From Chloroflexota bacterium (GTDB lineage: Bacteria; Chloroflexota; Anaerolineae; Aggregatilineales; Phototrophicaceae), in NCBI GenBank assembly GCA_028875185.1, contig JAPPFH010000010.1, positions 1 to 60,782 on the forward strand: 60,782 nucleotides of DNA, read 5' to 3'. Of the stretch, positions 34,698 to 55,723 are shown one piece after another. The notes under the pieces were generated by a model. That model saw nothing but the letters and a program-made list of their open reading frames with translations. It made no database searches and was not told the origin of the DNA. The position numbers and the translations under genes are program-made. Within the stretch, counting starts at the first letter, position 1, and every line of letters starts with the position of its first letter.

Positions 34698-34747
34698 AGC
34701 TCACCACTCCTCAGGCGCCCCCGGCGGGAAGACCGCGTATGGCAGAT

Positions 34748-35848
34748 TTATCCGCCTTGCAGCCTTTGAATTGCTGGACAATACAACTCTGGACTAAACC
34801 CCTCCGCGCAGAAACGTCTCACCACGCTTAGCGCCGGTTCTCCTTCAAGGAAAACCCGCCTATTCCTCGGGTAAGGAACAAGGGCGACAGTGACACCCAT
34901 CATGGGTTTGTGGCACTCGTATTCCTCGTCTTCATAGCGGATTCCGGCGGCGTATGTATGCAAGTGGCAAGCCTCATGGGCAAGTATCTCAGCCGTATTG
35001 AGCCGTTCATTAAAGGCGCTCCTGCCAAGCCACTGATACTTGTGGGTGATGCAGGTTTCCAAGAGGATTATTCTATCCGGACTGCGCGCAAGCGCGGTGC
35101 ACATCTCATTCGGACGACTAGCAAATTCATCAGGCGATACGGGGACTTCAACGATTAGATTTGTTCCGCTGATCACATAGTTGTACCATTCCGGCGCCTG
35201 GCGCTCCAGCCAGTCCAGAGACGCGCTGACTTCGCGAACAAAGCCAGCCGAGCCTTCAATAGGCGGCCTGAACGACTTGCGGGCAGCAGCAGTCCGCCTA
35301 GCCGCGGGACATTGATTGTTTTGGAATGCCCAGTAACCATTTTCCCACTCATCGTCGCTTTGGCATTGCCGGTCAACCAAGCAGCAATTGTCCACATTTG
35401 CCGGCGCGCTGGCAACGGGCTGCGCGGGCGTCGCTGGCTGAGGCTGCGCGGGCGCGGCGCATTGCCCGTTCTGATATGCTTGCCAGCCGGCCATCCAGTC
35501 CAAATCGCTCTGGCATTGCCGGTCAACGTTGCAGCAGTTGTCGATGGGCGCTGTCGGCGCTGGCAACGCTGGCGACTCCGGCGGCGCGATGCTGTCGACG
35601 CGGCTGAAATCGACCCAATCCGCCAGCCAGACTTCCCTTCCGTTGCGGTTGATCTTCAGCCAGCGATTGAACTCGCCGACAACTTGCAGAATTGTTCCCG
35701 GTCTCACAGTGTCGGCGATAGCGGCAGTGCGGCTGGGCGCGGCTCTCAGGTTCAAGCCTCGATTGGCGCGAATGGAGTATTCTTGCGCGGACGTTATGCC
35801 GAGCAAGACGGCAAATGCGACAACCGCGGCTATTGCTTTGAATTTCAT
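34748..35848 (-). CDS. Secreted SH3 / Cys-repeat / HExxH protein (copy 1)
   Basis: 366 residues. Signal peptide (1-21, GITSAQ), SH3-like domain (about 24-82, RANRGLNLRAAPSRTAAIAD), two ~27-residue Cys-rich repeats (104-130 and 153-180; core DNCCNVDRQCQSDLDWMAGW...QC) on Ala/Pro/Gln linkers. The C-terminal domain has APEWYNYVISG, ETCITHKYQW, HEACHLHTYAAG (HExxH at 291-295) followed by acidic YEDEEYEC, and a closing RRFCAEGFSPELYCPAIQRL. HExxH plus a downstream Glu suggests a zinc metallopeptidase, but no known family is recognised. 5' half nearly identical in DNA to the next gene. Confidence 0.75.
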   Translation of the reverse strand: MKFKAIAAVVAFAVLLGITSAQEYSIRANRGLNLRAAPSRTAAIADTVRPGTILQVVGEFNRWLKINRNGREVWLADWVDFSRVDSIAPPESPALPAPTAPIDNCCNVDRQCQSDLDWMAGWQAYQNGQCAAPAQPQPATPAQPVASAPANVDNCCLVDRQCQSDDEWENGYWAFQNNQCPAARRTAAARKSFRPPIEGSAGFVREVSASLDWLERQAPEWYNYVISGTNLIVEVPVSPDEFASRPNEMCTALARSPDRIILLETCITHKYQWLGRSAFNERLNTAEILAHEACHLHTYAAGIRYEDEEYECHKPMMGVTVALVPYPRNRRVFLEGEPALSVVRRFCAEGFSPELYCPAIQRLQGG

Positions 35849-35903
35849 TAGCGCCTTTTCTTGAATTCACAATCGCAAGCCTGACAACGGGGACGGCTAA
35901 AGC

Positions 35904-37217
35904 TCACTCATACACCCGTCGTATCCCGTATTTAGGTGGAAACTCCGCGTATGGCACATTTCTCCAGTCGCTTTCCAGCCTTTGAAGCGTCGGACAAAAC
36001 AGATCTGCCCTATACCCTTCCGAGCAGTAACGTCTTAAAGCGCTCAATGCGATATCTTTGTTAAAGTACTGCGTCCCACGATTCGGGTTTAGGCCAGCTC
36101 CAAAGGCGCTGGAAATCAATACGGATGCGCCCGTTCCCATTTTCCCGCACAACGCTTCCTCGTCATCGAGCGAAGCAAAATGTTTCCCCTCTTCATGTAC
36201 ATGTATGTGGCATGCCTCATGGCCAAGCGCCGCAGCCGTGTCATTCTGATCGAATTCAGCGGACCACCCCGATATAGCGTTTCTCATGAAGCAAGTTTGC
36301 ACGGTGGCTTTTCTTTCGCGGACATTAGCGAAGGCCCAGCATTCTGCCCGCTGAACATTCTGCCAGGGCTCAACATGAACGGGTTCTTCAACGATTGAGT
36401 CCAATCCGGTTATCACGTAGTTGTACCAGGCCGGCGCTAGTTTCTTCATCAATTTAAGCGTCGCTGTAATGTGTTGACGAAATTGACCCGAACCCTCTAT
36501 CCTGGGCACCGGTCCCGTAAGCGTGATCGCGGAAGTCTGCGCGGGATCAGCGCACTGAAAACGCTGAAAAGCCAAGGCGCCGAGCACCCTTTCATTTTCG
36601 GTCGGGCAGTCCCAACCAAGGGAACAACAATTGCCTCCGGACCCCGGCGCGCCGGCAACGGTCTGCACGGGCGCGGCGCATTGCCCGTTCTGAAATGCGT
36701 GCCAGCCGCCCATCCAGTCCAGATCGCTCTGGCAGTGGCGATCAACGTAGCAGCAGTTGTCCACGTTTGCCGGCGCGCCGGCAATCGGCTGCGCGGGCGT
36801 CGCTGGCTGCGGCTGCGCGGGCGCGGCGCATTGCCCGTTCTGAAATGCATGCCAGCCGGCCATCCAGTCCAAATCGCTATGGCATTGCCGGTCAACGTTG
36901 CAGCAGTTGTCGATTGGGCCTGTCGGCGCTGGCAACGCAGGTGACGCTGGCGGCGCGATGCTGTCGACGCGGCTGAAATCGACCCAATCCGCCAGCCAGA
37001 CTTCCCGTCCGTTGCGGTTGATCTTCAGCCAGCGATTGAACTCGCCGACTACTTGCAGAACGGCGCCCGCGTGAACTGTGTCAGCGATAGCGGCACTGCG
37101 GCTGGGGGCGGCTCTCAGGTTCAAGCCTCTATTAGCGCGAATGGAATATTCTTGCGCGAATGATACAGCGCAAAATAAAACTGCCGCGATTATTGGCGCA
37201 ATATATTTTGCTCTCAC
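35904..37217 (-). CDS. Secreted SH3 / Cys-repeat / HExxH protein (copy 2)
   Basis: 437 residues from GTG 37217, chosen because AAGGAG lies 6 bases upstream; the earlier TTG at 37223 abuts that site. Signal peptide ending VSFAQ, the same SH3 domain, and three Cys repeats (about 103-130, 153-180, 195-222; the third degenerate, NCCSLGWDCPTENERV). The C-terminal domain has APAWYNYVITG, HEACHIHVHEEG (HExxH about 333-337), LDDEEALC, and RRYCSEGYRADLFCPTLQRL. The tandem neighbour downstream is a paralog with two repeats. Repeat-number difference and 5' identity point to recent duplication with local conversion. Confidence 0.75.
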   Translation of the reverse strand: MRAKYIAPIIAAVLFCAVSFAQEYSIRANRGLNLRAAPSRSAAIADTVHAGAVLQVVGEFNRWLKINRNGREVWLADWVDFSRVDSIAPPASPALPAPTGPIDNCCNVDRQCHSDLDWMAGWHAFQNGQCAAPAQPQPATPAQPIAGAPANVDNCCYVDRHCQSDLDWMGGWHAFQNGQCAAPVQTVAGAPGSGGNCCSLGWDCPTENERVLGALAFQRFQCADPAQTSAITLTGPVPRIEGSGQFRQHITATLKLMKKLAPAWYNYVITGLDSIVEEPVHVEPWQNVQRAECWAFANVRERKATVQTCFMRNAISGWSAEFDQNDTAAALGHEACHIHVHEEGKHFASLDDEEALCGKMGTGASVLISSAFGAGLNPNRGTQYFNKDIALSALRRYCSEGYRADLFCPTLQRLESDWRNVPYAEFPPKYGIRRVYE

Positions 37218-37540
37218 GCGCAACTCCTTATAAAGACAAGCTCATCAAGCGCTAGAATTTAACACGAAGAAGGATCGTCCACAAGAGCTTGCCAGAATAG
37301 GGAGTGGTAAAAATCGCGGTTACACACTGATAAGACGGTGTAAGGCTTGATTGGTATTACAAGACCGGCATGAAAAATGGGCAGAATACTGCATGACAGA
37401 TCCTAATAACGAGACGAAATCGCAATCTGTGTACTGTTTCGCACTGGGCTAAGCTCCCCTTCCCTCATTTTGGGGTAAGGGGCTGGGGGATGGGGGCAGA
37501 AAATCAGGCGATTTTCGCTAATACCAATCAAGCCTTGTAG

Positions 37541-37561
37541 GGGCGACCTACTAGGTCGCCC
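37541..37561. repeat. 9-bp-arm / 3-nt-loop palindrome
   Basis: GGGCGACCT / AGGTCGCCC around loop ACT, preceded by TGTAG. Same geometry as 493-513, with the innermost pair changed from C-G to T-A on both arms. Confidence 0.85.
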
Positions 37562-37580
37562 GAATTTCTTTGTGTAACGC

Positions 37581-37601
37581 GGGCGGCATGATATGCCGCC
37601 C
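37581..37601. repeat. 9-bp-arm / 3-nt-loop palindrome
   Basis: GGGCGGCAT / ATGCCGCCC around loop GAT, followed by CTACA. It lies 19 bp after the previous hairpin in mirrored polarity, so the GTAGGGGCG at 37537 and CGCCCCTAC at 37597 form an outer inverted repeat around both. Confidence 0.85.
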
Positions 37602-37741
37602 CTACATTGTTGTCAAACTGGGCAGCTCATATCCGCAATATTCACCACTTCCCCAGAATATGGAGTGGTGAATTTTGGATATGCAATAGTTCCGAACTCC
37701 GGAATGGTCTTTTACCACCGAGCACGCCGAGGGGATTGAGG

Positions 37742-53939: not shown

Positions 53940-55673
53940 TCAACGAATGGCTTCAATCAGTTCGCTGTGAATATAAGCCGCATCGCCATCAATCTCAAAC
54001 TGAACCCAGTCCGTGCTGCCGTAAACTTCTTCGCCCTCAACCCGTTGCAAGCCAAGTATTTCTTCGCCTGGGCGCAGGGTATCGAGGATTGCGCAGTTTG
54101 TCCGTGGGCAGGCGCGGACGTTGGCGCCAAGTCCATTGCGCGTCTCCACCACCAGCCTTAGGCTGCTTGTCGCGCTTGGCGCGGGCGTCCAGGTTGATGT
54201 CGCGCTCGGTTCCGGGCTGCTAGTCGCCGTGGATGTGAAAGTCGCCGTTGGCGGTGGTTCTGTCGCGGTATATGTCGCTGTTGGCGGAGGCTCTGTCGGA
54301 GTATATGTCGCTGTAGGCGGCGATTTGGTGGGCGATGGCGTCGGCGTCGGCTGAATACGGGGCCGGGTTCGGCTCAAAAAGCTTTCGTGGATATAGCTGA
54401 GTTCACCTTGGTGGTTTAATTGGATCCAGCGATTGCTGCCGTTTAACTGCGAACCGGTCACGTAACGGCGGACGGCGATCTTGGTCCCAACATCGAGAGT
54501 TTGTACTAAGTCACAGCTATGCTTAGCGCAGCGGCGCGCGACCGCGCTGGATTTGACATAGAACACTTCGTTTCGGACCTCAATCGTAGCGGTGGCTGAT
54601 GGCGGCGGATTCGTCGCGGTGACGGTCGCGTTCGGTGGCGGATTCGTCGGCGTAGATGTTGCCGTCGGCCTCGACAGGGTCCTCGCGGATGCTTGCGCTA
54701 TTGGCGTATAACTGTCTCCAAATCGCGCGCGAAACTGAAATATCACGCGGTCGCCAGGCGACAGATCGGCTACAGTCTTGACGTCGGTAAAAATTCTTGT
54801 CCAACGCGTGAAGGCGCCATCATTGACACTGTAGCGATATTGGTAGTTAGTCGCGCCCGCCGCACTACTCCACTCAAACCTGACGGAATTATGGCTCGAC
54901 TGGGCGACGCGCACCGCCAGACGCGGGACCTCAGTGGCGGACGGCGGCGGTTCTGTCGCGGTCGGCTCGGCGATGACGATTGCCGCGCGGGCGGTCTCTA
55001 CTAAATGCCGAACGTCCGTTACCGGATCGCGCTCAGTTATCGCGCCATAGAGCCCTCCGATAATCAGCAGCAAGAATACGATGAACAAGAGCTTCGCGCT
55101 CCGATTGCGGCGGCGCGGCTGGGCGGCGCGGTCGCTTCTTTCAAGCGTCGGCGGCGCTGCCGCCCGGCTCGTCGTTCGATGCGCGGTGGATCGCTGGCGG
55201 GCGGGACGCGCCTGGCTACTCGATGGAACGGCGGCCGCCCGGTTGACATGGCGGTGTGAAGTCGAACGCGGTCGAGACGCGTCTGGCTCACTCTTCTCTA
55301 GCAAGCTGGAAAGCGTCTCGCTTCGACGCCGTTCTTGCTGGCTCCCTTGCCTTGCCAACCCCAATTGGCGCAAGAACTGGAATTGGTCATCTGCCAGATC
55401 AAACCACTCGCTTGCGCTCGCCCCGCCAACGAATTCCAGCAGCTCGCGTTCAATACGCTTGGCGTTGTCCGCCTGAAAGACTAGCGCTACCTCGACTTCA
55501 AACGCCTGCGCTAGGTGGCGGGAAAGGTCCGAGGGAGCGCCCGGCAGCCGGATTTGGTAGCGGTCGCCATAAGAAACATCGCGAAGAAAACAGACATAGC
55601 CGGCCGGCGGCTCCAGCGGCGGCTGGCTGCCAAAAATAGCCGGCCGAATTTGCCGAATGTTCCAATCTTCCAT
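53940..55673 (-). CDS. Membrane-spanning T5orf172-like / FN3 / double-SH3 protein
   Basis: 577 residues from ATG 55673, placed 6 nt after a TATAAT; an ATG at 55715 is also in frame. Order: degenerate T5orf172/GIY-YIG-like domain (about 24-103, GYVCFLRDVSYGDRYQIRLP, ERELLEF, EWFDLADDQ), basic Arg/Ser/Ala linker, TM helix (194-210, LLFIVFLLLIIGGLYGAI), FN3 domain, Pro/Thr linker, SH3-like domain with Cys (RRCAKHSCDLVQTLDVGTK), a Pro/Thr repeat linker, and a second SH3-like domain (NVRACPRTNCAILDTLRPGE). By positive-inside the N-terminal domain is cytoplasmic and the SH3s are outside. It links an intracellular nucleic-acid-type domain to surface binding modules. Unknown role. Confidence 0.72.
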   Translation of the reverse strand: MEDWNIRQIRPAIFGSQPPLEPPAGYVCFLRDVSYGDRYQIRLPGAPSDLSRHLAQAFEVEVALVFQADNAKRIERELLEFVGGASASEWFDLADDQFQFLRQLGLARQGSQQERRRSETLSSLLEKSEPDASRPRSTSHRHVNRAAAVPSSSQARPARQRSTAHRTTSRAAAPPTLERSDRAAQPRRRNRSAKLLFIVFLLLIIGGLYGAITERDPVTDVRHLVETARAAIVIAEPTATEPPPSATEVPRLAVRVAQSSHNSVRFEWSSAAGATNYQYRYSVNDGAFTRWTRIFTDVKTVADLSPGDRVIFQFRARFGDSYTPIAQASARTLSRPTATSTPTNPPPNATVTATNPPPSATATIEVRNEVFYVKSSAVARRCAKHSCDLVQTLDVGTKIAVRRYVTGSQLNGSNRWIQLNHQGELSYIHESFLSRTRPRIQPTPTPSPTKSPPTATYTPTEPPPTATYTATEPPPTATFTSTATSSPEPSATSTWTPAPSATSSLRLVVETRNGLGANVRACPRTNCAILDTLRPGEEILGLQRVEGEEVYGSTDWVQFEIDGDAAYIHSELIEAIR

Positions 55674-55679
55674 GCGCGC

Positions 55680-55685
55680 ATTATA
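55680..55685 (-). promoter_or_regulatory. -10 element of putative leaderless promoter
   Basis: TATAAT on the minus strand, followed by six bases (GCGCGC) and the ATG at 55673. Transcription would start at or next to the start codon. No ribosome-binding site lies between. Confidence 0.5.
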
Positions 55686-55723
55686 ACCCATAGAAGAGCG
55701 CTGCTGCCCGCCCAAGTCTCAAG

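Follow-up and report, generated by a model that had tools for sequence, protein, structure and literature searches.

A genus-centered family of candidate secreted, gluzincin-like metalloenzymes represented by a tandem gene pair in a Chloroflexota genome

A tandem gene pair with a common domain order

We analyzed a 60,782-nucleotide (nt) stretch of contig JAPPFH010000010.1 (assembly GCA_028875185.1) from a Chloroflexota bacterium of the Phototrophicaceae, hereafter called the window. Two neighboring genes in it, copy 1 and copy 2, encode proteins in which a signal peptide is followed by a bacterial SH3 domain, a set of cysteine-rich repeats, and a C-terminal domain of 170 to 200 residues with an HExxH motif (Table 1). 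The genes stand in tandem on the minus strand and are separated by 55 nt. A TTG codon at 37223 offers an alternative start for copy 2, yielding 439 amino acids (aa), but the GTG at 37217, with AAGGAG located six bases upstream of it, is likelier.

By eye, both copies start with a hydrophobic segment and an Ala-x-Ala-type cleavage site of the Sec type, in agreement with a first-pass annotation of this DNA that had called both proteins secreted. The same annotation had assigned one SH3-like module to each protein, and SH3_3 (PF08239), with a curated cutoff of 27 bits, scored 40.9 and 41.4 in the two copies, being the sole Pfam family above cutoff in either. The N-terminal domain clearly belongs with the bacterial SH3 (SH3_3) cell wall proteins, whereas its fusion to the repeat and the enzyme domain goes unnamed in Pfam and NCBIfam scans.

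Table 1. Coordinates of the two genes and their features in the window (pLDDT, predicted local distance difference test; pTM, predicted template modeling score)
Feature	Coordinates	Strand	Basis or remark
Copy 1, secreted, SH3 - 2 repeats - HExxH domain, 366 aa	34748..35848	-	ATG start
Copy 2, SH3 - 3 repeats - HExxH domain, 437 aa	35904..37217	-	GTG start
Copy 1 signal peptide, residues 1-21	35786..35848	-	read from sequence; helix 2-19 in model
Copy 1 bacterial SH3 domain	35591..35785	-	Pfam SH3_3 E 2.3e-10; SH3b folds among structure matches
Copy 2 bacterial SH3 domain	36960..37154	-	Pfam SH3_3 E 1.7e-10
Copy 1 Cys repeat 1	35456..35545	-	repeat profile
Copy 1 Cys repeat 2	35306..35395	-	repeat profile
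Copy 2 Cys repeat 1	36825..36914	-	repeat profile
Copy 2 Cys repeat 2	36675..36764	-	repeat profile
Copy 2 Cys repeat 3, divergent	36549..36638	-	repeat profile
Copy 1 C-terminal zincin-like domain	34751..35269	-	alignment of 93; model pLDDT 93.9, pTM 0.90
Copy 2 C-terminal zincin-like domain	35907..36509	-	alignment of 93
Copy 1 HEACH motif, residues 291-295	34964..34978	-	
Copy 2 HEACH motif, residues 335-339 of P0002	36207..36221	-	
Copy 1 Glu309, proposed third metal ligand	34922..34924	-	conserved in 92/93
Copy 1 Cys312, proposed disulfide partner of Cys294	34913..34915	-	covariation in 93 domains
Copy 1 part of 435-nt tract, 90.8% identical to copy 2	35355..35789	-	blastn
Copy 2 part of 435-nt tract	36724..37158	-	blastn

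A conserved metal site flanked by a covarying cysteine pair

In both copies, the C-terminal domain carries HEACH and then, after one short loop, E..C. Its conservation was assessed on 93 aligned domains from 95 open reading frames (ORFs), two ORFs with almost nothing past the last repeat having been dropped; single-repeat ORFs had been admitted only when they contained HExxH, and the set is biased toward intact sites in consequence. In copy 1 numbering, His295 is found in all 93 domains, His291 and Glu309 in 92 each, Glu292 in 90, and Cys294 and Cys312 in 89 each. HE..H is present in 89 domains, and 88 of the 93, both window copies included, have the full set of HE..H and downstream Glu, indicating that the HExxH pattern with a downstream Glu pointed out in the first-pass annotation is a real conserved signature. 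Glu308 and Glu309 had both been proposed there as the third ligand; the latter is the conserved one, whereas position 308 is a Glu in just 48 domains. The spacing between HExxH and the Glu is mostly 15 to 16 residues (52/93), and Glu309 falls in helix 115-130 of the model of the C-terminal domain, which was predicted in isolation with high confidence (Table 1).

Cys294 and Cys312 occur together in 89 domains, and in the other 4 small residues stand in place of the two, one Cys alone being found in none. Because the two residues are always present or absent together, a disulfide across the metal site is suggested, which would join the two ligand-bearing helices. The joint loss amounts to three events on a tree built without those columns, and an independent-pairs test of the covariation had two pairs, too few for significance. 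In aligned M78 peptidases, HExxH has Ala or Gly as its second x, and a Cys or Ala is often present three residues past the aligned Glu; the corresponding pair there seems to lie face to face in a small-residue form. A gluzincin-type site is supported, though not proven, by the conserved Glu and the covarying Cys residues.

The cysteine-rich repeat

Each repeat unit is about 30 residues long and follows the four-Cys pattern CC-x5-C-x17-C. The last gap is exactly 17 in 157 of 163 distinct units, all of which had been selected by a pattern already requiring CC-x5-C-x(15-19)-C. Two repeats in copy 1 and three in copy 2 agree with the numbers given in the first-pass annotation, although its estimate of about 27 residues per unit was too short; its impression that the repeat is new holds, since neither Pfam nor NCBIfam gave a significant match. 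The repeat profile matched 17 genus genomes plus one other (G084) in a family sample of 81 genomes and, among 301 genomes of the phylum sample, the window's own genome (G000) plus one marginal match covering 17 of 30 positions.

The repeat was also seen in small secreted proteins that lack the enzyme domain and end in a short acidic, Cys-containing tail, at L198 (G016:C27), L201 (G002:C230), and L202 (G030:C15). Three such proteins stand in tandem at L198, beside a fourth split between frames, and the one at L202 additionally has an SH3 domain. At L204:293-1453 (G000:C25), an enzyme domain follows SH3 without any Cys repeat. A protein of more than 1,000 residues that runs off the stretch at L178:2-3136 (G025:C19) combines Cys repeats, an fn3 domain, and three domains of the C-terminal type, of which two are degenerate and have lost HExxH (RNCH and TNCH) and one is intact.

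Distribution within the genus and beyond

A profile of the C-terminal domain, for which up to 25 candidates were scored per genome, gave 13 matches in the window's own genome (4.37 Mb). The domain was found in 33 of 34 genus genomes, 11 of which have at least 10 matches, with a maximum of 20 in one genome. The "pair" of the first-pass annotation was therefore too narrow a description, and an isolated tandem pair was rejected in favor of a large family within and across genomes. The survey of Chloroflexota proposed in that annotation was run here: matches extended to two other genera of the taxonomic family (G070 and G084), giving 35 of 151 genomes in the order sample, and in a phylum sample of 400 genomes they were confined to G000 and six others. 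Four of these six were inspected and showed two LysM domains plus HEASH (L112), HDATH (L110), HDAFH (L111), and HNAVH (L109), respectively. The family is centered on the genus and rare in the remaining phylum sample. Phage records contained no match to it.

Two genes that flank the window pair turn up repeatedly in the vicinity of family members, an enolase-superfamily gene in 11 and an aminotransferase in 10 of 22 pooled genomes, as counted by BLAST clusters of ORFs and named from Pfam. A second recurrent site, common to 8 genomes, has eight family genes in G032 and a single one in G000. All the genomes are draft assemblies broken into many contigs.

Recombination between copies and among genomes

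The two copies are unevenly related along their length. DNA identity is 91% in SH3 and 97% in repeat 1, but 64% in repeat 2, 54% in the C-terminal domain, and 52% in the signal peptide; synonymous divergence (dS) is 0.37 for SH3 plus repeats versus 1.11 for the domain. For the counterparts of the copies in G018, the SH3-repeat block is 99% identical and the domains are 53% identical. We then counted nearest neighbors for 74 unique genes from 26 genomes, taken from stretches around the better matches: of the 63 genes in multigene genomes, 18 had their nearest neighbor within their own genome by the block alone, 1 by the domain alone, 3 by both, and 41 by neither (P = 8e-5 for 18 versus 1).

Trees of the block and of the domain, each with 17 of these genes, conflicted. 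The window copies were joined in the block tree (100/100), where a grouping of copy 1 with its G018 counterpart was rejected (p-AU 2e-5), and their pairing was rejected in the domain tree (p-AU 1e-5), p values that are not free of selection, since the 17 genes had been chosen in the light of an earlier result. In the domain tree, copy 2 grouped with its G018 and G019 counterparts (100/99), and copy 1 was weakly paired with its G018 counterpart (65/21). Since the two trees conflict and the tract is similar while the domains differ, gene conversion would explain the pattern, as would exchange of the block on repeated occasions, and the SH3-repeat block is evidently homogenized inside some genomes. 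Slower evolution of the block was rejected as an explanation: the block had the lower synonymous difference in 4 of 26 cross-genome pairs (domain identity over 0.8; pairs not independent) versus 40 of 54 same-locus pairs. Some domains evidently also move between front blocks, as judged from G032 and G008, which have a common domain at a dS of 0.05 and blocks at a dS of 0.82.

Across 22 pairs, the median ratio of nonsynonymous to synonymous divergence (dN/dS) was 0.19 for the domain and 0.26 for the block. By these ratios, the enzyme domain is under purifying selection between close orthologs, and arms-race diversification was rejected.

Comparison with known families and weighing of alternatives

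The C-terminal domain reached no curated cutoff in Pfam or NCBIfam, as expected from the first-pass annotation, in which it matched no known family. Weak similarities were found to several peptidase families. M78 (ImmA/IrrE) is alike in having HExxH, then a Glu helix, often with Cys or Ala three residues on, and the local profile alignment spans 39 columns. The present family differs in being secreted and in possessing SH3, repeats, and the Cys pair; neither window copy matched M78 (PF06114) at E values up to 1, and 4 of the 93 domains did (best E value, 0.0096). The profile alignment with SprT is restricted to 25 columns around the active-site helix, and the copy 1 domain scored 14.4 bits against SprT-like (PF10263; cutoff, 25.6), with no match for copy 2. 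SprT and M91 matched 11 and 9 of the 93 domains weakly (best E value, about 0.003) and M35 matched 1. Membership of M78, SprT, M91, or M35 was rejected on these weak or missing profile matches. For the M1 aminopeptidase catalytic domain, there was no convincing profile relation (hhalign probability, 3.8), and the usual spacing of 15 to 16 residues from HExxH to the Glu is a further difference; the hhalign profiles comprised 15 M1, 12 M78 (15 loci, 12 usable ORFs), 15 SprT, and 4 oxygenase sequences. M78, SprT, and M91 were not among the 50 structure matches listed, but most of these are SH3 folds, so this absence does not count against them. When PDB sequences were searched with the domain profile, no hit had an E value below 0.26. 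A literature search, with most subscription journals outside its scope, found no description of the family.

One set of results raises an alternative to a peptidase. Among the matches listed, the closest solved structure is 8s5f, an HExxH oxygenase of the Fe/alpha-ketoglutarate type, with M1 aminopeptidases ranking behind it, and HExxH alone does not settle the chemistry. The conserved HExxH...E part of the gluzincin-type metallopeptidase proposed in the first-pass annotation stands, while peptidase activity is what we infer, with an oxygenase as the top listed structure match. The domains could then belong to the Fe(II)/alpha-ketoglutarate HExxH peptide hydroxylases, as a secreted branch that has diverged from the rest and that hydroxylates extracellular peptides rather than cutting them. 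TIGR04267, the family of these peptide beta-hydroxylases (ChlH, 8s5f), matches 19 of the 93 domains (best E value, 2.9e-7), and true TIGR04267 proteins, at 88 to 98 bits, are present in 4 of the 34 genus genomes. In 201 phylum genomes, TIGR04267 gave no match at an E value of 1e-6, but the controls of that search were silent too, so it shows no absence. PMC12636437 describes such beta-hydroxylases as maturation enzymes of ribosomally synthesized and posttranslationally modified peptides (RiPPs) and reports that one oxygenase of this group, PflC, has both oxidative and hydrolytic activity and hydrolyzes peptides with several metals. Since PflC both oxidizes and hydrolyzes, the two chemistries are close.

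A genus-wide TIGR04267 search gave 15 matches below the cutoff of 40 bits, the best at 29.2 bits (profile positions 2-74); 14 of them stop at position 74 or 75 of 177, straight after HExxH, and the remaining one, in a 697-aa frame, stops at position 90. The copy 1 domain scored 13.4 bits. In our own reading of the alignments, PWR and LHxxF follow HExxH in all four above-cutoff genus proteins and in 8s5f, but each occurs in 1 of the 93 family domains, which have E..C instead, and RPxxGxLH occurs in none of the 93; PDB chain 22nu has PWR without LHxxF, and the latter motif is thus not universal. In addition, the HExxH of 8s5f and of the four genus proteins lacks a Cys, unlike the HEAC found here, and hhalign of the family domain against those four proteins gave a probability of 0.5. 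It appears that the upstream half is common to these domains and the TIGR04267 oxygenases, and that the downstream half is not, a gluzincin-type Glu standing in its stead. TIGR04267 membership was rejected on the subcutoff scores, the partial profile match, and the missing motifs after HExxH. The RiPP hydroxylases are cytoplasmic, and a supply of alpha-ketoglutarate outside the cell is doubtful. All considered, we regard a hydroxylase branch as improbable. The above-cutoff TIGR04267 proteins themselves (L118-L121) resemble radical-SAM fusions, with CxxxCxxC recognized by eye.

It is somewhat less improbable, yet still unlikely, that the domains serve mainly for binding, as adhesins or lectin-like pseudoenzymes with a structural metal site. 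The two degenerate domains of L178 and the small secreted repeat proteins without an enzyme domain would fit such a role; the complete HE..H...E in 88 of the 93 domains would not, and a general-base Glu is unnecessary for mere binding. Least probable of all are polymorphic-toxin-like weapons. The constant front, variable C-terminal domain, tandem arrays, and recombination recall such systems, but the ends of the 93 aligned members, variable as they are, can be aligned as a single domain, and a dN/dS of 0.19 denotes constraint between close orthologs. Toxins with immunity genes were rejected, as the intergenic gaps, 55 nt in the window and 86 to 158 nt in the two arrays measured, leave no space for them.

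Proposed function

Taking these comparisons together, we consider it reasonably likely that the two genes are members of a genus-centered family of gluzincin-like metalloenzymes that are secreted and most probably act as peptidases. With similar assurance, we favor a role in proteolysis outside the cell, carried out by zincins that are held at the wall or matrix and differ in specificity. In this scheme, a Sec signal would export the protein, and SH3 together with the disulfide-stabilized repeats would anchor it to the cell wall or the extracellular matrix. The zinc ligands would be His291, His295, and Glu309, with Glu292 as the general base, and Cys294-Cys312 would tie the HExxH helix to the Glu helix. 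Paralogs may cut differing extracellular substrates, with gene conversion keeping one anchor per genome and the enzyme domains diverging in specificity.

A wider interpretation is more tentative, and we offer it as a possibility that is rather doubtful as a whole: the genes would form a symbiont repertoire with a genome-specific anchor held by conversion and mobile, diverging enzyme domains; the Cys repeat would be a docking module for active enzymes, degenerate zincins, and small acidic-tailed partners; and the domain would found a new zincin family with a metal-site disulfide.

If the proposed assignment is true, it would add an unnamed secreted metalloenzyme family with a repeat unrecognized by Pfam and NCBIfam, comprising extracellular enzymes that a perhaps sponge-associated lineage may direct at neighbors or at the matrix of its host. 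It would also supply a bacterial case of gene conversion holding targeting modules uniform as enzyme ends diverge. The Cys pair beside HExxH and the Glu is a testable structural feature. Caution is warranted in equating HExxH with a protease, because the nearest solved fold among the listed matches is an oxygenase.

Further features of the locus

Third-position GC is 0.57 and 0.54 in the enzyme domains (34751-35269 and 35907-36509) versus 0.72 to 0.75 in four neighboring genes. Sequence 3' of copy 1 (34723-34753) is 81% like the coding end of copy 2 (35935-35965), a likeness that may reflect the loss of a C-terminal tail from copy 1. Upstream of copy 2, an exact 17-nt inverted repeat (37342-37358 and 37520-37536, about 160 nt apart) adjoins an imperfect 27-nt hairpin (37536-37606), and the two are perhaps a small mobile or regulatory element. 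The window encodes a further SH3_3 protein at 53940-55715, which is 591 aa long and has linkers rich in Pro and Thr.
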